64,000 bases of DNA, from the NCBI GenBank assembly GCA_025266875.1, contig JALLLT010000059.1, forward strand, positions 124,001-188,000, in the 5' to 3' direction. This document shows positions 14,981 through 58,871 of this stretch, piece after piece. The DNA is from Fennellomyces sp. T-0311 (lineage: Eukaryota > Mucoromycota > Mucoromycetes > Mucorales > Lichtheimiaceae). Position 1 is the stretch's first letter. Every line of letters starts with the position of its first letter. The notes under the pieces are model-generated. The model ran no database searches and had not been told where the DNA came from. It worked only from the letters and a program-made list of their open reading frames with translations. Both the position numbers and the translations under genes were made by a program.

Positions 14981-15250
14981 CTAACGATGGTCAAAGTCTA
15001 GTAGTTTGCACTTCCCAGGAGATATGACGTGGACAATGGTGATGCATTTTTCATCAGGAGCCTTCCACGCGTGACTGCATATGTCATATGAAAGTCGACG
15101 ACGGAATGTTTCCGCCAGCTCGTGTTTAGCTGTTAAGTAGCGGCACCAGAGACGACCACCAGTTGCATAGCAACGTTTATCACGATGCATTAATTGGGCC
15201 CAACTAACATGGCTGGGGGGCACCACTTCCCAACCACGCCCTGGTCCCAA
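14981..15250 (-). other. open frame just downstream of Fanzor, possible 3' flank / guide-RNA region
   Basis: An 89-codon open frame starts 22 bp after the Fanzor stop on the same strand, but it has no clear start context or recognised motif. In known Fanzor and TnpB loci the guide RNA is transcribed from the end of, or just beyond, the nuclease reading frame. The 14850-15270 stretch is therefore the natural place to look for such an RNA. No structure was computed; this is a placeholder for that region rather than a claimed gene. Confidence 0.25.
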
Positions 15251-15272
15251 AAACTAAAGCTGTGGCACATTT

Positions 15273-18200
15273 TTATTGATGGCCTATCAATTGTGGACGG
15301 CGCAAAGGTACAGGGCGATGATCCTGGTCACCGTCCATCATCATATAGTTCAACCCGATTCGGCGCATGTTCCTTGCCGCATTCCGATCCCGATCAATGA
15401 CCTGCAAAAGTAGACGTCAAAAAAAATCAAAGCTATAAGAGGCAAGCACTCACGACATCGTGCTCATGGTTGAGACAACGTTTCAAAGACCACAGCTCGG
15501 TTCCTATGGTTACCCCAGTGAGCAAGCTGTCGTACAATATTTATGATGGCCTACCTTGCTGTTGGCCTTGAGTACACAAAGATTGTCTGTGTAGACGTTG
15601 GCCGTCCATGTTGACACATGTCTTGACCTTCCGACCACGCGTGCGTCTTATACGGGTCTGGACACGCTTTCGTTTCATCCTTAAAAAAACTTATCAGCAT
15701 ATATGAAACTAGCACCTTACGCTGCTTTACCGATGCGGCGTCCTAATGTACGTTCCCCGTATGGGTACAAGCTGAGCGTCACAATCCGAATGGATTTGAC
15801 TGGTTCGAAACTCCCCAGTGAGGATGACCAATGCGAATTTAGCCACGAACAATATGATTCCCTAATACTTGGTGAGTAAACTGATATAACACACACTGTT
15901 GAGTTGAAATAAGCATCTTACCACATGTGGAATTGGCGCAAAGTAGGGTAAAGTGGGCATCTCACCGTCACCCCAGAAAATGATCGTGTCATTTTCGTTC
16001 CGAACCCAACCTGACAATTCACGCGCTGCTTGGCGTCGGTGGCGATGCCATCGCTTCCGCATCCTTTTCGAAGAAAGATGGATGTGATGCATCTTTGTTC
16101 CCTATAAGAGTATGTGAGCAAAGATGAAGCGTTGCACAACAATATTCAACATACTGGACGGAATGGAGGTGTCAACCCGAGCAGTTGATTCATGATATGG
16201 TGGTTGGCGCTCTGTCGTGCACTGGCTAAAGTAGCACGAATTTCGCGATGTTTGAAAAAGCGCATACTGCCGCTGCGATGTAAGAACAATCTAATAAACT
16301 TCACAATCTATCTTACCGATTTCTAACACGCGACATGACTCGGATGTGCTGCTCAAAATCGGCAGCAGCAGAAACGTTGGATGAATTTCCTGCAAGTTGA
16401 TCGTATTCATCTTGTATATTGTACTTGGTGCGGTTATTTGCTTCTTTCTGATATTCCCAAAAAACTTGGGTTCTTGCACTATGATACGTATAGTTAATTA
16501 AAACCAGAATACGTAAGTTGAAGAAGCTACTTACTGGTAACTTCTTGTGCGTACTTCCACTTCTTGTTGCCATAGACCCGGCTGGGGCATTTCATCTTGT
16601 GTCGATGTTGCGGTGATCATGCTCGAAACCCCTGCGAGGTGATGAATTGCAAGTCGATATCATATCGCCATAGACTGAACTTACCTGGATCCAGCCCGAC
16701 AATTCGAGAATTTTCAATTCGTGCCTCGTTCAACCCACGGGGTCCTTTATCCAAATGATACACACCTTTGGTCCAGGCTGTAACGTCGAGGTTTTCCGGT
16801 AAGCGGCGGATTTCCGCGCGAGTTGTTACTACCGGTTCTAAGCAAAAAGGCAAAACATGTTAGCGAAATTTTCAATATCCATGTAACACACTCACCAATC
16901 TGCAGTAGTATTGGCTTCTCAAACAACAAATGGGCCTTCACGCCATCTGACTGCATGCTAAACGCGAATGATATCGCATTGAGATTAACCACGTCATTGA
17001 CTAGGGAAAATTTAGATTAACTGTTTTTGGGACACAAGGATATAAGGGTCTTTCAACTTACGGTTATCTCCCAATCGCCAGCGGTGACGCTGTACGTGGT
17101 TTATATTGAATATTGTTTCCCAAACCAGCTGCTGGGTTGCTGGGTTACCGGTAAGACGGGCGAGGGCATGCAAATTCATAAACTGTCCGTTCTTCATCAA
17201 CAGTTAGCAAGAATGGTAATAGCTCTTAATGTAACACTTTACCGCTTGTCGTAGTACATTGGGCACTGGCGTATTTTCGACGTTATGAGCGCGCCGACGC
17301 AGTATTAGGCATAGAGTTCTCGTACAAATGAGGAAATTCGATACTTGATGTTTTGCTACCGGAAGAAGCGACCAACGTTTTGCCGCTTGCAAGTCTTCAG
17401 CCGCCTGTAAGCACCATCGACTGACATTCAAAATGCGATTACACATTGCGTAATCGATGTGTCTTGCATATACAAGCCATAGATCAACATCGGCCAAGTT
17501 TGCTTCAAACACATCGCGCAACATTCTAATTTTGTTTATTACAGTGGAACCCCGCTTTTTGCACCCCCGCTTTTTGCACATAATTTTCAGGTAAACCCGC
17601 TCTTTACTTAAGAAAATTTGCACATCCCCCGCTTTTTGCACTTTGCACACCAAAATTTGGGATGTGCATTTTTCCTGCTTATCCTATATTATTCAGATCC
17701 GATAGCGGGATATGAGATTCGAACTCGGCTCTAAGAGTTTTCCAGGAAGGTTGCTAAAAAAGTACAAATTATTATTATGTAAAATAAGAAGTCAGTGCTG
17801 ATTGGTGCGTCTGACCCTTTTTGCAGAAATCATCACGGACTTTACGCAACTCCTCCATAAGTTCGCCATGCTCTAGATCATCCAAAATATTAAGAATACC
17901 AGCAATCATATCAGCCTTCTGCAACCAACTATATGTTGGAGTAGGAGAAACAGCATCTTCATGCTGCTGAGATTCATCACCTGCTTCTGTAATGGATACT
18001 TCCACAAGTTCCTCATCGAGCAGAGCACTGACAATTTCTTCATTGAAAAGCACCATATGCGTTGCACCAGCTTCCTCAGGTGGATCTGCATCAAAATATT
18101 GGGCTTCTAAAGAATCTTTTCCATACATATGATCTAAATGACCACGGATCTGATTCAATGCCATTATTTCTGCTTCATCTAATCCAACGCCAGTGCCCTC

Positions 18201-21200
18201 ACCGTCTCCACCCAACACTTTCGTTTTTCTGTAGCAGCTAGTGATTGTGGTCATCGTAACTTAGCGCCAAGCAGCATGCGCCCATTTCAGAGCTGTAAGC
18301 ACATCTACACGGAATGTGTTTCCATTATTTGCTGACAGGCCTGCCTTTAGACGTTGCTGGATTTTCTCATATGCATGCTCATACTGTCGGTTCCTATTTA
18401 TAACATGGAAGTTGATCTGTTAAGCTACTATTAATGTTAATTTAAATATACCATAACGTACTTGACATGTGCCTTAAAACTTTTGATGATACCAGCATCT
18501 AGCGGTTGCATCACTGACGTCGTGTTGGGAGGAAGATAAAGGAGCTCAATGTTGGATGGCGTAAAGTCGATCGCAACTTGGCTAGAAAAGTTGTCCAAAA
18601 GCAAAATGATCTTGTGCTTTTCATATCCCATGGCGTTGTCCAATCGCTTCAAGTACAACGTGAACAGTTCACGAGTCATCCATGCATTGGCATTAGCATA
18701 ATAGTTGCTGATATTGACCCGTTCCTTCTTTGCCTTTGGTATTATAAGTATACATATCTAAATTATTTAGCATAGTATTAGCTTACTCTTGAAAAACAAG
18801 TTGGCTTTTTAGACTTGCCAATAAACCATAGGTCACGTTTATCTGAGCCATCAGCATTTACAGTAACTACAACTGTCAACCTGGACTTGTCCTGCTTGAC
18901 GCCTTTGAAGCCAGTGGTAGCAATTGTAGTTGTAGGAGCACTGGCATAGAAGTAGGACGTTTCGTCCATGTTGTAAATGTCCCTGGGTTCATAACCTCTT
19001 GTTTTGGCTTGAACCTCAGGTAACGTAGTAGCTGCTAGCTCGGTATCCGCTGAGCTAGCTTCTCCGTGGAGCTTGACCATCTTTAGCCCGTGACGTCTGC
19101 GAAATCGGTCTTGCCAACCATTCGAGAAATCCAATTCAGTTAGGGTTCTCCATTCGGGTTTTCGAGTCGGGTATCTACTGACTCGTACCCGACCTGAAAA
19201 AAGTTAACTCGTACTTGTCAAATACCCGAAAAACTCGAAAACTCGTACTCGAAACCCGACTCGAAAATGATACAATGGCTTAGGTGCAATCAGCGTAAAA
19301 GTAGCAAAGATCACAGAAATCGAGCTCAATGTGACAATGTCAAGCATAAAAATAATTATACTGGTATAAAATGGATCTACATTGGCTTGAAACAGATATC
19401 AATAAGAGGCAAACACTGAATTGGAGGCATGTGAAAAAGACACAATCTTCAATATTATGGTGAGAGAGAATGGATCGAGAAAAACAGTAAATTCCGTGAG
19501 AATCGAATATGTCTTTATTATGTTAACGGTTCTCTCTATTTATATTGCTCGCAATAAAGCTCATAATCAAATAGCCGTGGTCGGGAGGATGCCATATCGT
19601 ATAGCTGACACGGCGATGTTTCTAGACTTCTTGGAAGATCTAGTCATGCCATAAGGCTGTCAATGTATTATTCAGGTACCATCATACGTTTATCCGGTAG
19701 TGCCGACTAGCTAGTACCTTGGATATCACAAATATTGTTTTACTATTGTTGTTGTTGTAAGTGGCACATATCATGACGATGACAATTGCCAACGGGAAAT
19801 GAATGGAGGTAGCAGGTAATAGAAGTATGGTTTGGCACAAAAATCATTTTCTAGCTTATTTTATAACCAACTTCATTTGCATATGATTAAGCTTATTCAT
19901 GAATGACACTGACACACGCCTTTAGTAACCACTCTGTAAATAAAGCTTAATTATCAAGTGCAGCTATACATTACTTTCCATTGCTATATATCCCGGATAC
20001 ATCCGCCTCCTATGTATTATCTTGTACATATAACTAGCCGAGTCGAGTCGGGTATTTCAAAAAAACTCGAAAACACAACGAGTCGAGTATCTGTCGACTC
20101 GTACCCGACTCGTCATGCCGAGTATCGAGTCGGATACGAGTATTCGGGTATATTGGAGAAGCCTAAATTCAGTTTCTGGAACGTCAAGCTGCCGAGCAAA
20201 ATCTCTGCCAGCAGACTTGATAACATGCCAGTTAATTGGTGTTCTGTCAAAGAATCTTTGTTCTATCCACATTGCAAGGGCACTCTCTACCAGCTATATA
20301 TGCAGCATTGTAAGTAATAAAGCTAAGTATTTCTTTTTTATTAGGGCGCGTACTGGAAATTTTGCTCGCGATTTCTGCCAAGTATTGCTGGTTACTCCCG
20401 CTTGGTCGTCAATCCTTCTTCTTTTAATCCAACGGCCAACAGCAGTTCTATCAGGAACGTTCTGGATCTTCTTCTCGTTCTGGGCCCAATTGATAAGATC
20501 ATGGATCTTAATCGGTCTGTTGGCTCGTTCTCTTTCAAAAAAGTATGAAATGATGGCTTCTTTATGATTTTCCTCGATTCTAGGCTTTTCTTTTGGTGGC
20601 ATATTTAATAAAAAGAATAAGAGAAAGAGCAACGCTTGCTAAGATATTTGAGCTTATATAATATCATCTATTTTGCGCTATACTACATACTATTGGCTGA
20701 CACTAACTAATGGATATTATATTTTCCTTCGTGTAACAACCTCACTTTTTGCACACCCCCACTTTTTGCACATAATTTGGATGTAAACCCGCATGTGCAA
20801 AAAGCGGGGTTCCACTGTAACTATAACTTTTTTTCGCGATAGATGGCGTGCTACTTACTGATAATCCTCGGCAATATCAAGATTCAGCAAATCGGCTGGC
20901 GGCTGAGGATCATGATGTACGATCGCTCTTGCCAATTGGGCGCTTGCTCGTTTAGCTTCCATGCGATTGAGGCGGGGCTCCAATGCCGCTTGCCATAGAA
21001 TGGCAATGTGTTGTTGTAATCCTCTCAGGTGCTCCTTGAAATCTATCATTGAGTTAGTAACGTGTTCATTAATGATATAATAGAACCTACTTTGAATGGC
21101 TTGCCTGGCAAAATTGCCCGCCATTGTTGCTTCCAATGTCCCATCGTTAACTGTGTCAGGCACATAGTAAGCTGTAAAAGTTGGAATTTAGCTAATATAT

Positions 21201-21708
21201 CCTCCCACTCGCACTCACATCTCACCTTCGTTAGCTTCCTGATCAATTCTGCAAGTTTGGAAAACAGCGAATGTTCCCATCAAATCATTATCCTATATCA
21301 CTAAAAAGATCAGTACCCCTATAATTCCAGGTGATCAACAGGACTTACCGTAGCAAGGAATGCCGGGATATTTTCCGCTTGGGGGTGCAATCCAACAAGC
21401 TTGTACACCCATGTCCACCACGTTTGGTTGAAGATAGGCGGTATTACCGCGAAATTACCCTCGAGGTACCGCCGCATATGGAGATTGACCAAGTTAAAGG
21501 CATCTTGGCGCCTGGTCGCGTTAACTTCCGCTATTAACCTGATCTCTGTCTATTTTGCTTTATCAGAGTAAGCTTTCGATTGTCTTTACCAACCCACCTG
21601 CATGAATCCGTATTCCGGTTGTGTCAGTGCCTTCAACGAGCAATTCCGAGTAACATTGCGAGTTTGGTCAGGAAAGCCATTAAAGATGGGCTGTGGGATG
21701 TTGGCCAT
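15273..21708 (-). CDS. Fanzor (eukaryotic TnpB-like RNA-guided nuclease), 17 exons
   Basis: Exons (translation order): 21598-21708, 21349-21543, 21226-21292, 21091-21171, 20859-21042, 17243-17525, 17062-17191, 16896-17000, 16685-16837, 16535-16631, 16317-16478, 16155-16272, 15922-16101, 15731-15861, 15555-15679, 15454-15503, 15273-15401. Lengths sum to 2301 nt, every join is in phase and no stop interrupts: 766 aa. RuvC-I is GLDPGVSSMITAT (D435), RuvC-II is TGEFRTSQIHSDC (E639), RuvC-III is VIDRDRNAARNM (D729); all three catalytic acids are present. The N-terminal RNA/DNA-recognition half has Fanzor-like blocks (NATRRQDAFNLVNLHMRRYL; FSMQSDGVKAHLLFEKP). The usual CxxC/CxxC ribbon is replaced by H646-x2-C649 and C717-x2-H720. 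TnpB-type proteins cut DNA guided by an omega RNA. A 3.3 kb Tigger sits in intron 5. The start ATG (21708) is the first in frame after an upstream stop; extra 5' exons are possible. Confidence 0.88.
19141..20165. mobile_element. hAT-type non-autonomous element (copy 1) with 8-bp TSD
   Basis: It starts TAGGGTTCTCCATTCGGGT and ends ...TTGGAGAAGCCTA, a short imperfect terminal inverted repeat (TAGGNTTCTCC). It is flanked by the 8-bp duplication AATTCAGT (19133-19140 and 20166-20173). Subterminal GAGTCGGGTA/TACCCGACTC repeats in both orientations are present near both ends. There is no coding capacity of its own. Of the 1025 bp, 275 are a solo LTR at 19456-19730 and 5 bp its TSD. It lies within the Tigger transposase frame. 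The second copy at 59975 shares ends and interior. Confidence 0.85.
19456..19730. mobile_element. solo LTR (family E) inside the hAT element
   Basis: It runs TATGGTGAGAGAGAATGG ... GGATATCACA, 275 bp, nearly identical to the LTR at 41614-41888 (same length). It is flanked by the 5-bp duplication AATAT (19451-19455 and 19731-19735). The second hAT copy lacks it at the equivalent site, confirming an insertion. The canonical terminal TG is mutated to TA. Confidence 0.85.
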
Positions 21709-21800
21709 TGGGTTTTTTGAGAAAAGAGGATCAACCAACAGAACCTTCACTTATGCATGGGTTTTTTACTTCTGAGTTTTCCGAGCTGATCCTGCAGCCT

Positions 21801-22237
21801 TTACTGGCACTGATGAATCGGAACATCAATCTCTGGCGACGTATCGTACGTCATCCTACCTGCTGTAGAATCCAGCTTCCAGCCAAAGAAGCGGCTCCTC
21901 TCGTTGACTGTTTCGGGTGCTTTTGTTTTTAATTTGACGTACCCGCCATGAACTACACAATTGTCGAGGCACAACTCTTCATCTCTTTCATGCACCGGAT
22001 ACCAGAGACGCATGTATGGCCGTGCTTGTACGAGCTCTACTTCCTGGCATCCTGACCCTTTCTTTGGGCATATCATCTACACCTATTTTATGCCCACTTT
22101 CGCATCAATGGGTTGGACCGCTACAGACCTCGTGCTTATCGTTACATCACATCTTACCTGACCGGTTCGACGCACCACTTTGTGCTCTTGACGACCTTGG
22201 ACGAGATACAGCTGCCCACTTCATCTTCACCTGCCAT
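21801..22237 (-). other. coding-like segments upstream of Fanzor
   Basis: Two blocks read on the minus strand: one starting at an ATG at 22237 (MAGEDEVGSC...) and one of 91 codons (21801-22076) containing PYMRLWYPVHERDEE and FFGWKLDSTAGRMTYD. I could not join them to each other or to Fanzor exon 1 in phase. They may be 5' exons of Fanzor, the end of another gene, or decay products. No family is recognised. Confidence 0.35.
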
Positions 22238-22239
22238 CC

Positions 22240-23620
22240 TGGAACCTAAGACGTTTATTATTGTCACCACAGATACAACTTATTGCTGGCAGTATGGCGT
22301 GCGCATTTTATTTGTATTTCTTCTACTTATTCCGTTTTGTACGACTAGAGGTAACGAAAAAACCTCTTTCAACATCAGCCACATTGATCCGCCTCCTTCC
22401 ATCATAACAAAAAAAAGAACAATCAGAAGCAAAAAAGATCGTACTGACAAAGTAGTATTTTTTCCTCTCTCTTCTTGTATGTAATAGCTTTGCTTCGCCT
22501 GTTTATCTTTCGTTCAGTCGTCCCAACTCACAGTTAATTAATTTTTCAGAGGCCATCAATAAATCCAGCTGGTTTGTCAGCGAATATTTAAACAAAAGAG
22601 ATCACAAAGAGATCACCGAGGTACAATTGACTGCGACCACCAACTAGTACTGCATGCTGATACCGCGTGTAAGCTTATCAACGCGAACTACTTTCCAGTA
22701 CCCTTGGCTAAAGTATCAATATGATTACAAGCAGGCCGGGGAGAGTTCCGCATAGGACTGAAAGTAGGTATGTTTCGCATCACATTATTTTCAATGGGTT
22801 TTTGAACAACTAACCATGGTCAAATAGCATTGATATGCTTATGTAGAAGACAAGGGTGGCAACAACGCTGGGGCATATCGATCTGAATATGACGAGCATG
22901 AAGATACAAATGTTAATTCAGACAACACAAGTGATGTGACAGCTATGGAGGTAGTGTATGATACGTACATTGAGGGTAATGGAACAGGAATGGGTATGGT
23001 TTGAGAGCAAACGGCACAACGTTACTGGAGAGAACATAGGCAAATTACGCAAGTAGTGTCAGTGAAAGCGAAACAATGGCCGTGGTCACAGAAGAGATGA
23101 TCGGTATCGACAAGTTGGTTTTGCAAGCGCATTGAGTGAGACTATTACGGTAAGGATGACTTGTATATAGCCTCGAGTCTGCAAGTTCTGTCTTTATATG
23201 CTGATCAGCAGGTAAGTCTCACTTCACTTGACATTGACATTCTTAAGCTATTAGTCTTTTAGTATCATGTTGGTATATGCTCTAATAAAAGTCAGCGTTA
23301 TGCTTTTTGATATGCAAAACGATATCATAATATTATTAGTAAAGTACACATTACATATACATGAAAACTTGTTCAAACTTCATTGAAACTAGTCTAAACT
23401 TTTTCAATCTAGCCCTTGTTATTCACTTAATAAAAAACCAGATTCAACAAGATCGGTTTTCCCACAGTGTAATAAATTCAGACATACCTATCAATGTCTA
23501 AATTCTTCGTGCGTAGGGATTTTTGTTGTATCCCTTTAATCCCATTTCTGTATTGCAGATAGGACAACGCAGCCTTTTCCCCTCGTCTAACAATAACCTT
23601 GGATTCTATAGGAAAACTCG
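22240..23620. other. stretch without a recognised gene
   Basis: AT-rich sequence without a splice-consistent frame or recognised repeat ends. The only open frames are short and featureless. Confidence 0.4.
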
Positions 23621-23626
23621 AGGATA

Positions 23627-24000
23627 TTAGAGTAGAGTAGGGTCTATGTCTTCCTGGTTTCGAAGGGCAAAGAAAGGTGCAGGCGGTTCAACCCAGAAGG
23701 ATCCACGGCAATATTCGCCCGGCATTCCGTATTTGCTCGTGCCATCTTTAAACCGTTCTTACAAGTCAGAAAAGTACTCTTTCAGAGCCGCACTTTCTGC
23801 CTCGACCAAATCTCCATCAGATCCAGTTGGTTCGTCAACATGAAACGTAGGATCATCATCAACTGTTGTTGTTTCATCTGCGTTCGATCGTGTATCCCCT
23901 TCTACCTCACGCATAAGAACTTCCAAAGTGATACGGTCATTCTCAGGTGAAGCGTCCGCAGAAGTACAATGTCTCTGTAATGCTATGCGTCAAAAATAAA
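23627..24000 (-). pseudogene. transposon-type coding relic with one nonsense codon
   Basis: One minus-strand frame runs through an acidic block (ENDRITLEVLMREVEGD, DPTFHVDEPTGSDGD) and then, after a single TAA, through GMPGEYCRGSFWVEPPAPFF and ALRNQEDID before ending at 23627. The style resembles an N-terminal portion of fungal tnp2-type transposases, but this is not certain. The in-frame stop and the lack of downstream exons mark it as decayed. Confidence 0.4.
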
Positions 24001-24672
24001 ACTTTTAATTGCGATTTCGGCTGTATACCTCGCCACTAATCTTATCGGATATGCTTCTACTGGCGGAGTTTTGCCTGTTGGAAGGATGAGTGGCTTCGGT
24101 GCTGTTAATGATTGACTCTCCTTTCTTCAACTGGCACTGCTGATGGTAATTGTCCAGTAGTACAACGGCGAATGGTTGCTTGGTTTTTTGTAATTTTTGG
24201 GCTTATTAATGCTTCCTTTAGTTCTTCTCATGATGAGGATAAAGTTTAGATAATATCACAAACATCCTGAAAAGATTTTCGGTTACACTAATATGCGTTA
24301 ACTATGGAATTCATTGGGCAGATCTCACCGTTTCCTTTGATCTTATAGGATCTTCTTCTCCGCGTTAAGTCTTAAGGTCATTGGCGTGGCGTCTCTACTG
24401 CCCCCCAGGAGCTTCAACCCAGCCATTAATTGTGCTAAATTATTTGATAATAAGATCGCTCATATTATATTTGGCCAAAGGGCATCCATGCTGTGGAGAG
24501 AGATTGAAAAGAAAATATTGTCATAGGTGCGACTTAATCGAGAGTGAAACAGGTCGATTGATTCGATGCAAGAACTAACGGCGGTGCCGACAGTTCCAAA
24601 ATGGTCGAAGTATTACGCTCCCAATATGATAATGAATACATTTATTGAAAGTAGACAGTGATAACCAACCGT
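24001..24672. other. intergenic sequence downstream of RPS14
   Basis: No gene is recognised. It contains the likely 3' UTR and terminator of the ribosomal protein gene (minus strand) in its last part and otherwise unremarkable AT-rich sequence. Confidence 0.4.
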
Positions 24673-25477
<805 letters not shown>

Positions 25478-25706
25478 ATTAGCGGATGAGAAAGAGGAGG
25501 AGCAGTGAGACGAATTTCCACGACAAGTAAATGCCTTCTATAAGCCACACAACCTACATTACCTAGCGGTGTTCAAAAATCAAATAAGACCGGAGGTTGA
25601 TTCCGTGCTTCCGATACTGATGGAGGTTGTCACGTAGTTACAGAGTATCTTTATTTACTTTTCATTATTTGAATGTCTCGTATAATACAAATTCTAATAT
25701 CTATTT

Positions 25707-37316: not shown

Positions 37317-37736
37317 TCGGTCCATGCCTTTTCAAGTGCCCCGATTTTCAGGCACGGTCTAGCAGCCTTGCCCGTCTAAAGATGACCGACGGTCGTCGGT
37401 CCTTGGGTATGGACCAACCGATATGCCCAAAAATCGTCGGTCCACGTCCATTGCAAGCCTTATCCATTGGATTAGTTTCTACCAACATCTGTCGGAAACT
37501 ATTTCCATCTAGATTAGGACATCAAAGAACTTCTCGAGTTTACCCGAGACATGTATAAGTTACTTAACAGGACACTCGTCCTATATCATTGCCAAAACAT
37601 GGACCAGGAACATCACCAAGAAGCGTTCATCCCGACTGCTTCAACAATATAAATATCTGAGTAGTTGTCATCAATAAAAACATCTTTAATTCAGTCTCGC
37701 ACTTTGACCGCCTGATCTTATTTGAAGAATACCACA
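37317..37736. other. probable decayed LTR
   Basis: The right end reads ...ATCAATAAAAACATCTTTAATTCAGTCTCGCACTTTG...GAATACCACA, which matches the 3' terminal style (AATAAAA ... GTCTCG ... ACCACA) of the family A LTRs. The left end is not defined. No coding sequence is seen. Confidence 0.45.
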
Positions 37737-38036
37737 GTCCTGCTTGACGCCTTTGAAGCTAGTGGTAGCAATTGTAGTTGTAGAAACACTGGCGTAGAAG
37801 TACGACGTTTCATCCATGTTGTAGAAGTCCCCGTGTTCATAACCTCTCGTTTTGGCTTGAACCTCGGGCAACATAGTAGCTGCTAGCTCGATATCAGCTG
37901 AGCTAGCTTCTCCGTGAAGCTTGACCATCTTTAGCCCGTGGCGTCTACGAAATCGATCTTGCCAACCATTCGAGAAAAGCAATTCGGTTTCTGGAACATC
38001 AAGCTGCCGAGCAAAATCGCTGCCAGCAGACTTGAA
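37737..38036 (-). pseudogene. Tigger transposase fragment (second copy)
   Basis: About 300 bp match the Tigger transposase around 18891-20215, reading RFRRRHGLKMVKLHGEASSA and YNMDETSYFYAS. It is continuous across the point where the first copy carries the hAT element, and so shows the uninterrupted sequence FSNGW next to the upstream exon. It is cut on the left by an LTR end (ACCACA) and on the right by sequence starting TAGGGCTCTAAA. Confidence 0.8.
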
Positions 38037-38039
38037 AAC

Positions 38040-38394
38040 TAGGGCTCTAAACGGGCCATGCCTTTTGCCCGAACCCGAAATTGCAAGAGCCCGAATTAAG
38101 GTGGCCCGCCCGACAAAATCTACAATGTGAACTACCTTAATGACGCAATGACTAATGTAGAAGTGAAATGGGGTTCCGCGTTGTGTTATGGTATATAATG
38201 TTTGGGCAAAAGTCGTCTTTATTATATTAAGTCACGAAATCGCTATCATACACACTTTTTTTTGGAACAGCGGAACTTTTTTCTAATAAGAGGTTATTAC
38301 CTCATTTGTTTGTAATTTCGCGTACCAAAGGCAGAGGCGGATTGCTGCAAGCAACAAAGAAAGACCAAGAAGTACAAAATGTCAAAGTGACACC
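38040..38394. other. possible second hAT-like element, left end TAGGGCTCTAAA
   Basis: The sequence starts TAGGGCTCTAAACGGGCC and is rich in GCCCGAACCCG-type subterminal words. A similar start (TAGGGCTCTAAATACAGGCGG) occurs at 60948. TAGGG is a common hAT terminus, but I could not define the right end or a target duplication. Confidence 0.35.
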
Positions 38395-47276: not shown

Positions 47277-50200
47277 TCAAGAGTTAAACTGTGTTGCCCA
47301 ATGGTCATCATGCTCGAGAACAGTACATGCAATCTTATGTGCGGCGTTAAGTGGTGGCAGGATGAAATCAGATAAGTTGTCGTGCAGTTGAATAAGTACA
47401 AAATGGTTGCGGCGGACGAGTTGCATGATGATGGGCTTTGGAAGTATATCCGGAACATTGAATCCAATAGGCAAAAATAGTTGAGCAAAGCGACCTGTAC
47501 CAGTATAAATTGCAATAGGCGTGAGGAAGGCATCAGCAGCAATTTGGGCGCAGTCAGGAGTAGTTGTGGTGAGAGAGTTATTAGAGATAGAATAGGTAAC
47601 AAGAATAGAATTCGTTGAGAATCTGAATAATTGTATGTCCTTTATTATGGATGAACTCTCTCTCTTTTACATCTTTTACTGGAGATTCTAATATCCGTTC
47701 CTGGATAAATGATACTTGGTCGAGGACGTATCGGGTTGCGTTTTCATCTTACGTTTTACCGACGACGGCAGCTATCGACTCCGTGTACTCTGTGATAGGT
47801 GCATGTCCTGTAGAACATCATTCAGCTTCCTTGAAACCGGTGTAAGGTAATACCGTTCATATCTTAGTCATCAATACTCTTCCAGAGTGTTCGTCTGATG
47901 GAATGTGCTAGAATGGATGTTTGACCGATCTCCATTGTGTGCATACATGTAGTGGTTCACCACAGTAGTAAACCAATATTCGGCTGGGCAAAAGTCTTCC
48001 ATATACGTCAGTGTCTCGAGTAATCCTTTGGTTTTGTAATAAAAAGGTCGTTCTGAGTACAATCGATGCCGAGCAAGTAGTGTTGATCGCATGGAGAGTC
48101 TGATGGCTGGCCATTCTTCTTGATCTCCAAAAATATGTTGCGCGATACATCTGAACCCACAATGACCATCGCCTTTGACGTCCCAAACAGTGTTGACAAA
48201 TTTTTTATCCAAGAGACCGTCCACAGAGATACCATTGATGACAACCGATGGCGGTAGATCCGCAGGTATACTCGAAGCCCTATCGAATATAGATTATGAG
48301 TAAAGCAATACAAACACATAATACAATACCAACCTTTCGTCAAATATGACGCTTTCTTGATCATCCTCCTCATCGCACTTGTTGATGTTACTCTGCCCGA
48401 CACCGTTGTTTACAGTTAATTTTATCTTTTTGACGCGATTTTCCTCGATAGTCTTCTTCTTTCTTTTCTTCTCGGCTTTCTCGTGTGCAGCAATCGTTTT
48501 TTCTTTTAGTTCAATGGCAAGTGGGAGGCGTTTGGTTCCTTTTGGGCGGCCTTTGCTTGACTTCAAAGGAGCTGGTTCATTTAGTTCTTTCAATGCAGGA
48601 ATAGATGTAACATTATTCACAAGCTTCGTCAACTGGTCTAGGATTGTTACACGTTGTTGGTCGTCATGTAGTTTCAAAAGTGCTTGCTCAAAGGAATAAA
48701 CAGTTCTTTTGATCGTAAGGTCCGTTTTGGATACATTGATTTTTTTTTTCTTGATTGCTGTAAGTTACATCTACTATGCTTACATCAACAGAAAGCCACA
48801 AAATATATATTATCCACTTTACCTTGGGTAGGTTCAGATTGCTTTTCATTCAGGTGCCAGCGGGCAGGTACAGATGAAAGTGATATGACCGATTGGTTGA
48901 CTAATAGGTGCTTGCAAGGTATGTTGAAGTTTATACGGACAGGACAGGTGCAGTTGATATTTGGTTTTGTGCTTTTTGTACGCTTTGCGCATTCCATTTT
49001 GATTTTATCGATCGCATAACGCGAAACTTTGCCCAGTAACTCTACCAGCACTGCTTTGTCATTTGCAGCCATGTACGGATCATCTCCAAACTTTTGAATT
49101 TCGGTACTGTACAGGATGGCCTCCCTCTATTAATAACATAAGTACACTGTTATAAATTACAAAACGAAATGCTTATACCTGGTTACGTATGAAATTGTCG
49201 ATTGTCAACATTGCACTGCTAAGACTCTTGGCGGAACAAAGTTCCTTCTTGATGACAGCGTGGGCACCTTCAACTCGTTGGGTCGTTGTATTACCAAAGT
49301 GCAGATAGTGACAAGTATACGCTCCAACCCATGCTTTTTTCTTTTTCAACGTGCTTTTCGGACGTTAGCACTATACATATTGGCGTACAAAACACACTTA
49401 CAATTCAAGGTAGCTAATGATATGATCGGCTTTTGTACTAAACATCGCGATGCTGACATATTCTTCTTTGGCTTTATCGACGTCCTCCAAGGTACGGCTA
49501 TATATCAATTTTTTCACGGTCTTGATCAACTTGTCTTGCTGGTCTTGAGTATCGAATCCTTTTAAACAATGCTTTTTAAAATTGTTGATGATGTGAAAAG
49601 TGCAAAGAAGTTGAACGCTGGATGGGAAAACATTGCTGACCGCACATAGTTCGGCTGCTGAGTTGTCCATTACAATCGAAATAGGTTGAAGTTTGGCTGG
49701 TGCATATACAACATCAAAAAGCTGAGTTGTTGTCCACTCATACGATGCTGTCGATTCATCCGAAATCCATGCTCCAGCAATTGCAAACGTCATCAGTGCC
49801 TTGGCACCCACATTCCCCATCCCAACCATATCCACATATGGCATTTTATATCTGTTGGTTTTGTAAGTGGCGTCAAGAATCAAGACCTCGTAAAACCGGC
49901 GTGCTTTGTTGATGCTTGATGGATGACAGAAAAAGATGCTTCGAAGACAGTTTGTAGAATCATACCGGTACCGAACGTGGTATCCCTTACAGTCCAAGTC
50001 GTCAGCCAGTTTTTTCAACTGTCCTGGTTTTCCATCTTCTACACGGCGCATTTGATATCGAATGTTGCTGATGTCTTTGGGGCTTGCAGTGGCATTTCCT
50101 TCGTCATCACGAAGTGCATTGGCAATCGTTTTGGGGGTAGCATCGGTGGCAACCATCTTGACCACATGATTATAGTTTTCTTGGGAGAGTTGGCGGTGCT

Positions 50201-50519
50201 GGTGGAAAATCGTTGGGTCCTTTGACATTTCGTGGTTATGTGTATATACAATGCTTGTTACAATCCAATGATCCTTGACCGCTACAGCCTTGATCTTGAA
50301 TGGGCAATTGATACGGAAAGACGGACGTTTGACTTTTACTGTGGTACTATCGAGATCCCAGTTGTTTCGAAAGTTGCCTCCCATGGTACATTGCCACCAA
50401 GTATGGTTGGAGGAGCTAGTGCAGATGCTGACCGCAAACCCATTCTCTTTGGCATATTCGCGGCATGCCGCCTTCAATTCGTCGCGAGAGATAAAAACAG
50501 AGTTGAGCAATTGTGACAT
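47277..50519 (-). pseudogene. MULE transposase with FAR1-like, SWIM and C-terminal OTU protease parts, split by a solo LTR
   Basis: ATG 50519. The N-terminus has a FAR1/WRKY-like zinc region (WWQCTMGG ... INCPFKIKA ... YTHNHE). The MULE DDE core includes LILDATYKTNRYKMPYVDMV, FAIAGAWISDESTASYEW, SIVMDNSAAELCAV and LLCTFHIINNF. A later exon (48785-49072) has a SWIM finger CTCPVRINFNIPCKH. A basic linker (KKRKKKTIEENRVKKIK) precedes an OTU-type cysteine protease: VKGDGHCGFRCIAQHIF (Asp/Cys) and RRNHFVLIQL (His), ending at 47277. A family G solo LTR (47565-47964) lies in the OTU coding part between YWFTT and PDCAQ. OTU enzymes remove ubiquitin-like tags; a role in transposition is unknown. Confidence 0.82.
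47565..47964. mobile_element. solo LTR (family G) in the OTU coding region
   Basis: 400 bp, TGTGGTGAGAGAGTTATT ... GTGGTTCACCACA, flanked by the 5-bp duplication GTAGT (47560-47564, 47965-47969). Its start shares TGTGGTGAGAGAG with family E but the body differs. Removing it with one TSD restores the OTU frame. Confidence 0.88.
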
Positions 50520-52105
50520 TTTAGCCAGTTACAAAAAGTTACCAAAGTACTTTATTTCGCAATGAATAATCAAAGAGTGCTGAGAAGAACGGAGATGGGC
50601 GGAGATGGCTGATCTGTGGAAGTTCTTCGACTTGCTAAACTCACTGAAACTATTCTGTCCAAGGGTGACTCGTTCCTTTCTGTCCGAAGTAAAACCGACT
50701 GGTGAAGCCAGCGACTTTGCGACTGGCGGGAATGTCGCAGGCAATGTTGAATAATGCTGCTCGAACCATCACACGATCACGACTTTGGTGTGTTGACATC
50801 AGAATTCCATCACGAAGCCACTGGAAATCGTCGACAAGTGGCTCCAAGTAATGGTTCATTTCATAGGTATGTGGTTCCTTTGGTCCAGGTATGACACCGA
50901 CAAGGATCACGTTCTCGATTTTATAGCGTTCGGCTCGAGGCAAATTGTTGACAATGAGATATATGGCGCCGATGGAGTAAGTACCGTTAAAAGGAGAGAA
51001 CCAGTCAATGTTGAGCGTAAGCATTAACGAGCGTGGGTGCTCAACAAAAGGAAGACCATCGTTATCCTGGAGCGACCGCCAGCGCATACCGTCGTATACA
51101 TCTGTGAAAACACCCGGTCGATACTGGTATCGTCTCCATTCATTGATGCTGTCTTCGAAGCCTTCACGACTGAAAAGCCGCTCCAAACTTTTCCCCAATG
51201 GATAGTAAGCATACTGCTTAATGGGTGTCTGCGAGATTCGGTTGCTTAATGTTTGCTTCAGAAGCCGTGTGCCGCAAATAGACAAGTCGACATTCGTGCA
51301 CGTAGCTGGGCCAGGCAGAGGGGAAATGGCATGGCACGTGGGGCAAGCACTGTACATGCGGAGATCTTCGGTAAGACGGGTGAAGCCGATCCATCTTCGC
51401 AGACTGGTGATCGTTTCTGGCACGGATGGCAACAAATCTCTCGATTGGGAATGGATCAAGGATACGCAGAAGCCGATGAGGATGACGGCAGCTCTCTCGG
51501 ATATGTGATACAATTGGAACAATACAAGGAAAGCGAAGACGAACAACAGCGAATCAGGGATATGATCCTGAAGGCTGGTACCGTCTACAATTTCTTGATC
51601 TAAACGTTTTGCGGTCAACACTACTTTGCTTCCTCTACAGATCCGTTAATTTCACAAACCTTCATCATCCTCAACTGCGTGCCCGAACTCGACATCGACG
51701 GCTTCGTTCATTTCATTTTGATCCCTGATCCCAGGATCGCGAATGTCAAATGTTTGGACCGGTGGTTCTTCTATAAATTGGTATGAATGTTTTGCTTCGG
51801 TATTTAGCTTACATGAACCTACCATTGACAACCATCGGTGCAGGCTCACCAAAATCATCGTCGTCAGGCTCACTATGCATCATGGTAGTATCACCATCTG
51901 AAGGAATACAGGTAAGTTAGATTGCCATCAACACTCGCATGAATTCAGGCATACCATTATCAACGCGAGTCGATACAATGGCGGCAATGGCATTGGTGGC
52001 GCTGGCACGCTGGTGTTCATTATATGTTCGCTGGTTGACAATAGCCCCATTGGGGTTTCTGCCTCGGCAAAGTTCACAGTAACACATATAGGATCTTGTT
52101 GACAT

Positions 52106-53368: not shown

Positions 53369-54821
53369 CTACAATCTATGACTGGCTTCATACAATTCAT
53401 CTCTTAATCTATCGCGTACTGTGACACCTTGCTGACGCAGCGACGCAGTGTCTCCAGTACCGCGCTGGTGTCCTGAACTCATTACAGAAATGCGTCCTGT
53501 GCCTTCATCTTCTTCCATATTCAATGGAAAAAGTTCATTGGAATGAGGATCATGCCGTTCGATGCAGATATTGTGCAATATACAGCATGCGTATATTGCC
53601 AATGTCAATCGCTCATGATTCTTAAGATAAAGGTAATGGCGCAGGAATCTCCAACGAGAAACAAGGCAACCGAAGGCTCGTTCAATAGCCATACGCATGG
53701 AAGAGTGGACGAAGTTGAACTTCTTCTCGGCAAGATCTGTTGCTGTCCGTGAATAGGGCACCATTATCGTGGGTCGTAGTGGATACGCAGAGTCTTTCAA
53801 GTACAAACAGCTTCATGTCAGTAATATTCATTAAAGCACAGAATGCTGGAAATGCTAACCGGCAAGGATATATGCTCCATTTAGGCACCATTGTTCAGTT
53901 TCGTTTATTAGCTTCGTATTGAGGGAGCTATTGGCAAGCGTACGTGCATCACGGGTTCGACCTTATAGATTGATTTGAAAATACATTAGACTGAGTAATA
54001 TATCGATATTATAATACGTAATTGACAATACCTGATTGACCGGCTTCTATGTATGAGAATCTCTCATCAGCAGTACAAACAGCAAGTAAGTTGATGGAAT
54101 GGGGCAATTTACAATCCCAGAAGCGCTGTTCATTGCTAGCAGGCTTGTGGATTACAATGAGTTTGCCATCCATCGCTCCGATGCCTCCTTGTAATCTTCT
54201 GTCTGCATCGTTGGTGCTCGCCAGCCCAGTAGGTGCCGAAAACGCTTGGGCAGCTTGCTGTGCTTCTTCTGGTGTGCTTGGCCATCTGATCTGTTGCCGG
54301 TGAACGTCCCAGATGGCATTTAGGAATCGCATCGTGAAGTTGTGATACGATCCTTGGCTCAAGCCAAATTGCGTTTCGAACATGCGGTATCCAACATGAG
54401 TGTTTGCGAAACGCCACACCGCACAGCAGACTTGAATGTACACTGGGGTCATTCGAGGAGAGTCCGAGGCAAATGCTTCGTGCGTCGACAAGGTGCTGAT
54501 AAGCTATTCCAAAGTTGACTTCTTCATGCGATAATGCCATCTGTAACTGTCATAGCCATCGTCGTCATTCAGGTTTGGATGCGTCAATGTCCAGAATTGC
54601 GCACCATGCGTTCGGCTAACTTTTGCTGCACGAAAGTGGTGAGGTGAGCTTGCAAAAGCTGCAACAATGCTCGCATCAATAAAGTGGGTAGCCTGTACTG
54701 ATGGCGCAATAAGTTCTGTTAGCCGTTGCATAAATGCTGCTCGACGGCGTCTTCTTTCTGCAGCATTATTATGTCTGTGACGTTGGATCAGAATTGGCGG
54801 TGGGATGCTGTTGTTGTTCAT
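53369..54821 (-). pseudogene. PIF/Harbinger DDE transposase with one nonsense codon
   Basis: ATG 54821 (MNNNSIPPPILIQRHRHN...). The frame is open to YRMKKSTLE, then TAG at 54504-54506, and continues in the same frame with LISTLSTHEAFASDSPRM. The catalytic region has GGIGAMDGKLIVIHKP (first Asp), CTADERFSYIEAGQSG and, after two short introns, DARTLANSSL, then the third-acid helix region MRMAIERAFGCLVSRWR and ILHNICIERHD. These are typical Harbinger (DDE_4) landmarks. The single amber codon is the only defect seen. It pairs with the Myb-like gene on its left. Confidence 0.82.
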
Positions 54822-55754: not shown

Positions 55755-58700
55755 ATGGCACGAGGAAATGGTCATGGTCGCAACCCTGCCGCTGTCCCCT
55801 AGGGAAGTGGCATGGGCAGTAGCAGTGGCGGCGTACCATTGCCTGGCCTTTCTCTTCCTCCCCCTCTCCAACAAAATGGAATGTATTTCCAACCACAGTT
55901 CTTCAATCAACAAGCAAGCTATGCTTACGATGCTGTTAGGGCTGGACAGCAAACCTTTGAAGAGGCCAAGGCGACAAGAGCCGCAAACACAAACAAGTCA
56001 TATACGCCGAAGCAAGAAGAATTCCTGCGTTGGTGTGCCTGCCGCTGTCCGCCAGACCATACAAACCAAATTGTCGATGATGCAAAAGTTCATCTTTTTC
56101 TGGTCGAAGAGGTACAGTTTCTGTTTATCATCTTTGTGTAGAATAGAGCCACTTACATGTTCTATAGGTTGTTTTGCGTGAAAAGCAGAAGCCGGGAAGA
56201 AAGAAGGTTTTGCCTGCCATCACCAATTCAGAATCATCTGCTGCTGCTGCTGCCCAAGAAACACATTTCACTGAACTTGCTGCTGAAGCTGCCGCTGCTG
56301 CCGTTACCATGTCGTCTGACTCTCCTCCTCAGAGCGCCACTGTGATTTCGTCGCCCCCCTCTGCCACATAATCATCATCCTCTACTGCTCCCCCGGCCAA
56401 TACTACCATTACCATGTTTGCTGCTGCCGGCGTGGATGCTGCCGCCGATGCCGTCTTATCTCGTATGCCTGCCAATGAAGAAAAAAGAGTTGGTCTTGCC
56501 ACCGTTCTCGCGTACATCAACTCTCTCGTCGATCTTTATACAATGCAGATCGAGAAAGACGGCTGCTTTTCCCGACCTCATCCCCGTAGGCCCTATGTTC
56601 AAGCTTTGGTGAGGAAGCTAAAATACCAAGAAAGCACTTTGAAGCGTGAGCGATATGATGATAGAGGTGCGGGCACGATTGCAGATGGATACACAACAAC
56701 CGAGGAGATGAAGGTTATGGTCGACTACTTTTTTGGCAAAAACACGGCGGAACGATTGCGAAACTGCACCTCGTTTTTGCTTGCTCATTACGGTTTGCTA
56801 CGTGGCGAAAGCATTCGAAAAATGGAGTTTGCCGATTTACAGACCATGTTGCTGGAGAACGAAGGTGTCACTGAGTGCCATGCATTAATTATGGTTTTGT
56901 TGCAAGGAAAAACCAACCAGAAGGGCCGTGTCGAATTTGCTGCTTGTCTCAGGAATGCCAAGGTTCAGATTTGTCCACAGATGATCCTTTCAACATACCT
57001 CTTTTGTCGGTGGCATGTACGTGGCGAGCAGTTTCCAAATTTAAACACAAACAAGGATTGGTACCGGCTCAAACTTATCAAATCCTCGGGCAATGACAAC
57101 ACTGCAGAGTTATCGTATCCAGCACACTTAGCAGCAATTAGTGCAGCATTCAAGGAGGTCGGCTTGCACTCGAAGGCAAAAACACACGCAATGCGTGGGT
57201 CGGGAGCACAGATGGCAGAAGTTTTGGGCACTAGCGAAGCAGCAATCCAACGTTTGGGCAGGTGGAATAGCAATGCATTGTCAAAGAAGTACGTGACCAA
57301 TATCCCAAGAGAAGCATTACGAACGCTCGCAGGTTTTACTCGCCAAGTGGGCCAATATTACCTACCACGTGCGACTGTCACTCCTCCTCTTGAACTTTGT
57401 CGGAAGGTGTATGTGATATTCAACAATAGTAAAAGGCAGGTAAGTGACGAGACTCAAGTGATGACTGATTTATTTCGTATGTTGAATCATCACTTTAAAT
57501 AATAAAAGCTTATTCTCGAGGGGTTGGATCATTGACATGGTTGTAAGGCACATGAACCGCTGTGGTAACCAGAGTTATGTGGGTTTCACTAAGATAGGCA
57601 AGGTTATTACGATGAACGCATGTCAAGACAGAGATCTGGCTGTAGATCGGAAAATTAAAGTAACCCGTTGTCAATAAGCAAACAAGGGTAAATGATGCAT
57701 AAGCCATAATCATGTTGTGGATACAACAGTGTACCCGTGGGTCGATACTTGGCGCCAGCGCTTAGACAGTGGAAATATGGAACAATCGTCGCTTGCAGCG
57801 GATGGGTTTTTAAAGTTGCTAGAGCAACTTCGGATTGTGTTTCTACAGGATTCTGTCCTTTTGAAGAAGCAGTACCCGCACCATTTTGTTTGGAAAGATC
57901 CTCTTTTCCAAGACGACCTGTACCTGCAGTTCGAAAGGTGCGTGATGAATAGCTTTAATTACTATGGTTAACTTACTGTATCAACTATTGCTAGTGATGT
58001 GAATGATGCTTTGGACGTGGAAGTTGAACCAAGTGAATTGCTGCTACAGAGGGCTGTACCGATCATCGAGAGCAGACTTGGAGTTCTACAACAGCAAATC
58101 GCTCTACAATTTCAAAAGCAAAACGAGTTCATCAACTCTCTCGCTGGTCTTCTTACTTCTCTCCAACCTCTTGCTCAACTCGGTCAACAATCGCACGACA
58201 TCCAAAATGCTATCCAACAATGGCAAGATCTTGTGTGCGGTCGTACATCGTTGAGCTTTTCGCTCAACATCAATCAACAGCAACAACAACAGCACCAGGC
58301 GCAGCAGCAACACCAGCATACAAATCCCTCTGTAGGAGCAACAGTAACAGCAACACCATTGTTCTCTACAACAACAACATCATCATCACCGTTCCCTGCA
58401 GCAACAGCAACAACGTCATCGCCCTCGGCAGCAGCAGCATCGTCTCCAACAACAGCAACTGCAACATTCACAACAGCAACAGGAGCAAACCCTGTGCTGC
58501 TCCCACCGCCATCAACAGAAGAATCGCCACAACCGATTCCAAAGTACAAAATGTGTCGAGGGGTGGAAACGTTCAAGACCTTGTGGTGCGAGTTCTTTGA
58601 GGGGTTAGTGGTTGATCTGCCAAACGGCGGAAAAACACGCCTGCCCAAAGTTGACGATCTCGAAAAAAAGTACAAAAAAAGGTGGCGCGAAGAATCTGGC

Positions 58701-58871
58701 GAAAATCAGTTCTTCTGCAGAAGAAACCGCATCATCAAACGAATCAAAGCCGAAGTATCTGAAACCAATCCTGTTCAAGACGTTTTGCAACGGTATCACT
58801 TGAGAAAGTTAACGAAAGATGTTTCGTTCGACTGGATTTCGAAGAATATGTCTTCATTTTTTGAAGATTGA
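55755..58871 (+). pseudogene. Crypton-type tyrosine recombinase with GCR1_C DNA-binding domain
   Basis: The frame starts MARGNGHGRNPAAVP, then TAG (55800-55802), and is followed through an intron (56113-56168) and a second stop TAA at 56369-56371. The core (56414-57410) is the Ndc10_II/DUF3504-like tyrosine recombinase: LLRGESIRKMEF (first Arg), THAMRGSGAQMAEVLG (His-x2-Arg) and RLGRWNSNALSKKYVTNIP (Tyr), then AGFTRQVGQYYLPRA. A solo LTR interrupts between LELCRKV and YPWVDTW. The downstream part has poly-Gln/Ser/Thr and the GCR1_C domain (FKTLWCEFF, DLEKKYKKRWREES, FFCRRNRIIKRIK). Cryptons move by recombinase without TIRs. Two nonsense codons and the LTR make this copy non-functional. Confidence 0.85.
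57412..57728 (+). mobile_element. solo LTR (family D) in the Crypton recombinase
   Basis: 317 bp, TGTGATATTCAACAATAG ... GTTGTGGATACAACA, flanked by the 5-bp duplication GTGTA (57407-57411, 57729-57733). The reverse-oriented relative is at 38395-38711. Removing it with one TSD joins LELCRKV to YPWVDTW in frame. Confidence 0.9.

Follow-up and report, generated by a model that had tools for sequence, protein, structure and literature searches.

A 64,000-nt stretch of the genome of Fennellomyces sp. T-0311, from a genus of Lichtheimiaceae (Mucorales), contains on its minus strand an open gene of 17 short exons, which we read as one copy of a divergent Fanzor1-type RuvC protein encoded within a transposon family of its own. 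This stretch, referred to below as the window, corresponds to G000:C138:124001-188000 in an assembly of 45.6 Mb (182 contigs). The explanation that best accounts for the observations as a whole, and that we consider quite likely, combines this protein and its transposon with a guide-RNA mechanism proposed from the anatomy of the element and with an impaired state of the particular copy found in the window. The suggested Fanzor link rests on the register of the catalytic motifs, on a profile-profile match (strong only when a CxxC-bearing relative is included), and on the element anatomy.

Gene Structure and Catalytic Motifs

The gene occupies window positions 15273..21708 (minus strand), with exons 1-6 at 21708-21598, 21549-21349, 21292-21226, 21171-21091, 21042-20859, and 17525-17243, exons 7-12 at 17182-17062, 17000-16896, 16837-16685, 16631-16535, 16478-16317, and 16272(or 16266)-16155, and exons 13-17 at 16101-15922, 15861-15731, 15679-15555, 15503-15454, and 15401-15273. 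The spliced product (2298 nt; 765 amino acids plus stop) has a start codon and no internal stops, and all introns carry GT-AG ends and measure 44-61 nt, with the exception of intron 5 (3333 nt); the same structure recurs in sister copies. The initial annotation of this stretch had described 17 minus-strand GT-AG exons, none longer than 283 nt and free of stops and phase breaks, and this observation is confirmed: a single frame runs from 21708 to 15273, and the longest exon measures exactly 283 nt. Its total of 767 codons differs from our model; arithmetically, that total would follow from an exon 12 acceptor at 16266 combined with an exon 7 acceptor 9 nt earlier, both as in the annotated protein P0001.

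When splice sites over the whole gene stretch were searched unguided, with simple site scores, an open path across the gene also emerged, but one of 16 exons and 779 amino acids, in which intron 4 is read as coding, the exon 12 acceptor is placed at 16266, and intron 13 is spliced otherwise, shifting the RuvC-II/zinc stretch into a different frame. The 17-exon model is preferred at introns 4 and 13 because the sister copies agree with it, and the acceptor at 16266 is rather favoured for exon 12 because the two extra residues are absent from two sister loci (L051 and L056). Our own spliced aligner reproduced the window model with the window protein itself as guide (a program check only) and was then applied to the sister copies.

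The predicted protein presents three putative catalytic residues: RuvC-I Asp434 (GLDPGVSS; codon 16689..16691), an alternative RuvC-II Glu638 (TGEFRTSQ; codon 15811..15813) located six residues before the zinc-ligand motif, and RuvC-III Asp728 (DRDRNAARN; codon 15387..15389). Candidate zinc ligands, within 15460..15792, are His645 (15790-15792), Cys648 (15781-15783), Cys716 (15475-15477), and His721 (15460-15462), all features being on the minus strand. DPG and the Glu and RuvC-III Asp residues are invariant in alignment A6, which comprises one sequence for each of three subfamilies, and the motifs DPG, E-x6-HxxC, and RDxNAAxN are present in all eight intact copies, i.e., the window gene and the seven intact sister loci introduced below. 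The RuvC trio of the initial annotation is upheld for RuvC-I and RuvC-III, and its RuvC-II stretch, TGEFRTSQIHSDC, is also there, but corresponds to the relocated ("alternative") Glu six residues ahead of the zinc finger. Features described for Fanzors include a RuvC-I Asp within DPG and, six residues ahead of the zinc finger, an alternative RuvC-II Glu (PMC10711439).

Sister Copies and Selection

A genome search with the window protein produced 167 exon-level matches, and those listed could be grouped by eye into at least 24 places besides the window; what had been presented as a single hidden gene belongs to a transposon family with at least 25 places in the genome. Twenty of these 24 places were examined as sister loci (E039, E040, and E042 denote L039, L040, and L042 lengthened leftward using L059-L061). 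The complete set of 17 exons without stop or frameshift is retained in seven of the 20 (E040, E042, L041, L051, L052, L056, and L057); in L051, L052, and L057 the aligned part begins without ATG, and an in-frame ATG is found upstream before any stop. L045 shows neither stop nor frameshift, but gave an implausible 25-exon fit and was left out of the intact count, and the remaining 12 loci carry stops or frameshifts.

The window gene, L051, and L056 represent three subfamilies with a protein identity of about 50%. When L051 was aligned with the window protein and L056 with its own annotated protein as guide, all 16 introns shared their phase across the three subfamilies and 15 of 16 shared their alignment column (the remaining one being three columns off). 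Because seven of the 20 sister loci are open and the introns are common to three subfamilies, the gene structure is more than a product of chance. Among the annotated proteins, P0001 lacks the last exon and P0003 (from L056) is complete.

The codon-level test for selection that the initial annotation had proposed yielded ratios of non-synonymous to synonymous change (dN/dS) of 0.18-0.43 in all nine within-subfamily pairs of intact copies, pairs that share branches and hence are not independent. The shortage of non-synonymous change is reflected in P values of 0.0005-0.022 for the five pairs tested, assuming a 0.775 share of non-synonymous sites; restriction to intact copies selects against stops and not against missense change. 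Between subfamilies, dN reaches 0.44-0.48 and dS is saturated. Judging by these substitution patterns, the Fanzor-type family is under purifying selection, which speaks for the family and not for the present state of the window copy. Protein searches for homologues, which needed shared 5-residue words, found only proteins of Fennellomyces sp. T-0311; with two peptide patterns per search, 48 stretches in viral contigs (query A6) and 49 in prokaryote genomes (query A4) matched one, none of them confirmed as relatives.

State of the Window Copy

Over its 765 codons the window gene differs from E040 by three synonymous and four non-synonymous changes, and we regard it as a young copy because these differences are so few. 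Relative to E040, E042, and L041, it carries a 12-nt in-frame deletion (site 16251..16260, minus strand) directly before the motif KHRE, which is invariant in A6; among the eight intact copies the four residues before KHRE are missing in the window copy alone, and the annotated protein P0006 lacks them as well. The second peculiarity is intron 5, which measures 3333 nt in the window vs. 55 nt in E040, E042, and L041. The claim that a 3.3-kb transposon divides the gene is borne out in that a pogo-type (DDE_1) transposon of 3.28 kb, recognized by its ends, its TA duplication, and a PF03184 match (E=8.1e-21), lies at a TA wholly within this intron (17542..20817, minus strand). Splicing may be inefficient for an intron some 60 times as long as usual. 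The inserted transposon is itself broken at about 19170-20150 by sequence bounded with CGAGTCGGGTA-like repeats, and a second related frame is located at window 37686-38231 (both by eye).

The initial description of the gene as intact and possibly active therefore holds for its frame and is doubtful for this copy, given the four residues missing before KHRE and the 3333-nt intron. By these comparisons, the window copy is less likely to be active than its sisters and probably is impaired. That it is a dead copy of a family active now or formerly, a reading compatible with the explanation proposed here, strikes us as rather more probable than the opposite: the deletion before an invariant motif, which none of the other seven intact copies shows, and the insertion into an intron of otherwise 55 nt argue for it, whereas the otherwise intact frame, the scarcity of differences from E040, and the survival of both intron 5 splice sites argue against it.

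Element Ends, Target Sites, and Cargo

Comparison of the copies, by the extent of the sequence common to them, delimits an element carrying the Fanzor-type gene at 15194..24424 (minus strand), with a sharp right end at 15194, a left end at 24424, and a size of 5953 bp without the nested pogo-type transposon. It is bordered on the same strand by the duplicated target sequence TTAAT on the left (24425..24429) and on the right (15189..15193), the latter being also the first bases of the predicted guide, and GCACAA, a candidate target-adjacent motif (TAM), stands directly 5' of the left duplication (24430..24435). End queries on the genome retrieved at least 24 left-end and at least 25 right-end places, of which 15 of 24 and 24 of 25, respectively, were read (window included), and both ends could be paired in nine copies. 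The 5-bp duplication agrees at five of five bases in six of these nine copies and at four of five in two; GCACA occupies the expected place in 10 of the 15 left ends, extended to GCACAA in nine of those ten. Two sets of exceptions weigh against the preferred explanation. One of the nine copies (L044) shows no duplication, and GCACA is missing from its expected position in five of the 15 left ends, which read CCACAA (L070), GAACAA (L075), a shifted GTACAA (L071), or nothing similar (L074 and L077). The idea that GCACA is a part of the element itself was rejected because of its position beyond the duplication. Inspection of the element by eye showed no clear terminal inverted repeats, and a search for empty sites with the joined flanks of two copies matched only each copy's own flanks.

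The 5' part of the element (21709..24424, minus strand) holds the remains of a DUF6729-like frame (PF20499, E=0.0012, obtained with a composite query containing guessed residues), and PF20499 is also found within the C160 element and, with stops, within the C2:800813 element. Longer copies, with left ends at G000:C160:24801 and C133:214896, have about 6.2 and 7.4 kb, respectively, between left end and gene, and the DUF6729 frame of the C160 copy, with 380 codons, represents a candidate transposase. PF20499 (DUF6729) matches 51 places in the genome, a large multicopy family, and may constitute a transposon family of its own because most of the listed places are not near placed Fanzor copies. 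Five of the 25 right ends have no nearby gene match among the matches listed; these include a 331-bp mini-element at G000:C117:1118560-1118890, which has both element ends and no room for the gene. Two other origins of the element were considered. KDZ transposases (PF18758) match 90 places, none of which, by reading, falls between both ends of a copy; one of them (C120:267405-268172) is situated some 2 kb upstream of L045, a 5'-truncated copy for which no left end could be located. As regards Crypton, the window does have Crypton-like genes, but at a distance of more than 30 kb; no search for Crypton genes was made in the other copies.

Right-End Hairpin and Proposed Mechanism

The 82 nt from the stop codon (included) to the right end of the element (15194..15275, minus strand) form a candidate guide-RNA (omega-RNA/reRNA) scaffold, distinguished by a covarying hairpin of two helices, the final nucleotide of which is also the final one of the element. 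All 24 right ends read entered the alignment of this hairpin except L042, which does not differ from L040 over these 90 nt, so that 23 were aligned. In its 20 distinct rows 93.0% of cells are paired, vs. 22.7-47.4% with slid partners, and 11 cells have both sides changed, vs. a shuffled mean of 4.2; the percentage paired, the double-changed cells, and the covariation score all exceed those of 500 shuffles, which do not correct for the kinship of the many closely related rows. Five right-end pieces of 65-70 nt gave folding z values of -2.5 to -4.6, vs. 0.22 for one left end. The case for a conserved fold is reduced by other figures: 167 of 500 shuffles score as high in pairs with double changes and 142 of 500 in further pair types, the 65-70-nt pieces were cut after the hairpin was known, and the full 82-nt window piece has a folding z of only -0.91. 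An Rfam scan of window 15000-15600 gave no match.

A different explanation would have the hairpin act at the DNA level as a structure for the transposase, with no guide RNA involved and with GCACAA reflecting a target preference of that enzyme. It is favoured by the coincidence of the hairpin with the exact terminus of the element, by the ability of a transposase preference to explain GCACAA equally well, and by the outcome of the empty-site search described above, in which no empty site was found. We nevertheless judge it rather unlikely, as the single left end folded shows no comparable hairpin, and in TnpB elements the same motif serves as insertion target and as TAM. Moreover, the place and size of the hairpin match the scaffold of SpuFz1, for which an 80-nt region between the stop codon and the right-end repeat and an RNA composed of a 75-nt scaffold and a 14-15 nt guide are described (Saito et al., PMC10432273), a layout identical in its position between stop codon and right end.

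Under the preferred guide-RNA reading, the right-end hairpin would be transcribed as a scaffold, and the guide would come from the DNA immediately beyond the right end, namely the duplication and the flank that follows it. The protein would bind this RNA and cut guide-matching DNA beside (GC)ACAA, that is, at the element-free site, and such cutting would potentially aid the persistence and spread of the element. The transposase would be supplied in trans, the best candidate being the DUF6729 gene present within some copies. Target duplications of Fanzor1 elements have been predicted as a part of the scaffold (PMC10711439); here, because the duplication varies between copies, we would rather assign it to the guide.

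Family Assignment

A C4 zinc finger after [TS][TS]xx belongs to the published Fanzor/TnpB signature (PMC3627910), and a Fanzor regular expression demands CxxC...CxxC (PMC10711439). A looser H-C-C-H pattern is matched by all eight intact copies, its four residues being invariant in A6, and a long insert separates the two knuckles in the proteins of this family. The TnpB/Fanzor membership asserted initially thus retains the D-E-D signature in register, a profile match, and an element anatomy with a right-end hairpin and a possible TAM at the left end in its favour, and loses the C4 zinc finger, which is replaced by H-C-C-H.

Other evidence has to be set on the other side of the balance. None of the eight intact copies matches the C4 patterns of PMC3627910 and PMC10711439. 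PF07282 scored 10.6-14.3 bits where bits were listed (cut-off 26.3), was not listed for P0001 and P0010 nor in one further Pfam scan, and matched three of four C-terminal pieces with a best E of 0.002; the NCBIfam scan matched no family, and for neither the window protein nor its relatives did a Pfam or NCBIfam family attain its threshold. Sequence searches of PDB with A1, P0003, and P0010 found no Fanzor, and a C-terminal profile compared with PDB ranked PpFz1 third (E 0.41), behind two MafG chains, in a match that is collinear across RuvC-II and the zinc region. Structure prediction, another of the proposed checks, produced two AlphaFold models (predicted local distance difference test scores of 38.4 and 35.4) not usable as evidence of fold or for a comparison with Fanzor structures. 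Finally, the three subfamilies taken without P0010 reach a probability of only 36 against the Fanzor profile.

The proposed profile search of the spliced product hence failed at the level of family libraries, while a profile-profile match to Fanzor1 segments was obtained, for which P0010 is instrumental. This protein of the same genome, found by the family profile with an E of 3.2e-58 and 27% identical to P0003 over 83%, keeps VCYGC, with E-x6-CxxC; it satisfies the [TS][TS]xx pattern (first CxxC) and not the full expression, its gene model stopping there. Matches to its gene were obtained on contig C26 and in three or more other places, and Pfam and PDB searches left the protein uncalled. Compared with a reference profile of three short segments (from PpFz1, SpuFz1, and the L001 Fanzor of the same genome), the three subfamilies together with P0010 gave a probability of 94.6 (E 6.9e-8; one comparison) and P0010 alone 85.5 (E 5.6e-6); without P0010 the score was 31.0, whereas the highest-scoring of 200 column shuffles reached 22.5 and the reversed alignment 14.1. 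The catalytic Glu was in register in all three profile comparisons. A second, repetitive Fanzor family of the genome (L001-L008 and nine further places; eight read) has a long open C-terminal frame and keeps standard CxxC knuckles, with PF07282 matching 17 places, five of them above cut-off.

We consider it improbable that the protein is a Fanzor descendant devoid of nuclease activity or turned to another function, for instance that of a regulator of transposition confined to binding the element end, its zinc ribbon having decayed. The H-C-C-H set in place of C4, the long insert between the knuckles, and the sub-threshold Pfam scores would fit such a history; however, neither the D-E-D residues nor the four H/C positions vary among the representatives of three subfamilies, the intact copies evolve under constraint, and decay would hardly keep two histidines in place. 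Sets of the H-C-C-H type can bind zinc. Least of all do we expect an unrelated RNase-H-fold protein with a chance resemblance of motifs, which is compatible with the absence of significant matches to known Fanzor/TnpB proteins in sequence and family searches and is very hard to reconcile with three ordered motifs in register, a Glu exactly six residues before the first ligand, a profile score above all 200 shuffles, and a CxxC-bearing relative (P0010) that matches Fanzor segments. The protein therefore is interpreted as part of a divergent Fanzor1-type element, in which the H-C-C-H set departs from the family definition and probably marks a new variant.

Comparison With Known Systems

A RuvC nuclease, a guide at the right end, and a motif beside the left end characterize TnpB of IS200/IS605, and the same layout is proposed here; the target duplications of the Fennellomyces element are a difference from these systems. 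They also set it apart from Fanzor2/IS607, which is not known to make target-site duplications, in contrast with duplications in eight of nine Fennellomyces copies. TnpB typically has D-phi-G, with the canonical Glu some 50 residues ahead of its zinc finger (PMC10711439), vs. DPG and the alternative Glu here.

In PpFz1 (Parasitella parasitica, PDB 9cf0) and SpuFz1 (Spizellomyces punctatus, PDB 8gkh) the Glu likewise precedes the first knuckle by six residues, the stretch that spans both reading DEFRTSSFC and DEYKTSSVC, respectively, vs. GEFRTSQIH in the window protein. According to the respective papers, both also have DPG and RD and are encoded in a transposon with a short structured region that separates the stop codon from the right end. 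The window protein differs from them in having H-C-C-H for C4, and a whole-protein sequence search gives no match to either. The candidate motif GCACAA contrasts with ATN for PpFz1 (PMC11423790) and CATA for SpuFz1 (PMC10432273); the motifs of GtFz1 and SpuFz1 appear the other way round in one passage of PMC11423790.

The MCi-2 Fanzor1 elements of Mucor circinelloides (Bao and Jurka 2013, PMC3627910) are similar in belonging to Mucorales, in being multicopy with Fanzor1 in the 3' part, in having no recognisable terminal inverted repeats, and in insertion sites whose 5' half is fixed and whose 3' half varies, ATAATTNNNN(N). They differ by 11-12-bp duplications and a partial Crypton transposase (PMC3627910), compared with the left-only GCACAA, the 5-bp duplication, and the DUF6729 remnant of the window element. 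The 331-bp C117 mini-element, known from its coordinates and 28 nt around its left end only, resembles the ghost loci of S. punctatus (PMC10432273) in having both ends without room for a gene.

Other Features of the Window

Directly upstream of the left end of the element lies a gene at window 24672-25490 that we take, by eye, to encode a ribosomal protein S14-like product, the insertion being about 240 bp from its 3' end. Farther away, window 56372-58871 (plus strand) contains NDC10_II (PF16787, E 8.8e-43) followed by GCR1_C (PF12550, E 5.3e-13), a pair presumably representing a Crypton. Other transposase frames belong to MULE (49401-50528, PF10551), Tc1/mariner (61478-62419, PF01498), and DDE_Tnp_4 (54012-54503, below cut-off).

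Implications

A literature search, mostly without subscription papers and supplements, found no Fanzor in Fennellomyces, no DUF6729 paper, and no H-C-C-H Fanzor. Introns in Fanzors were also the subject of other work in 2023. One survey of Fanzors searched with C4 regular expressions (PMC10711439), and another employed structural and profile mining (PMC10432273). The family described here does not match the C4 regular expressions, stays below the Pfam zinc-ribbon cut-off, and is encoded in short exons. It is possible, though we advance this only tentatively from the sequence evidence, that it represents a lineage of RNA-guided nucleases with a stable H-C-C-H ribbon for C4, a GCACAA-type motif, a transposon of no assigned superfamily, and a DUF6729 transposase.

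Should the preferred reading of the family be correct, a single genome would offer several intact copies that are almost identical, numerous natural insertion sites, and a scaffold hairpin open to comparison, and the motif, the scaffold, and the zinc-ligand swap would become directly testable. The DUF6729 gene tied to the Fanzor element may, in addition, provide a lead to an uncharacterised transposase.

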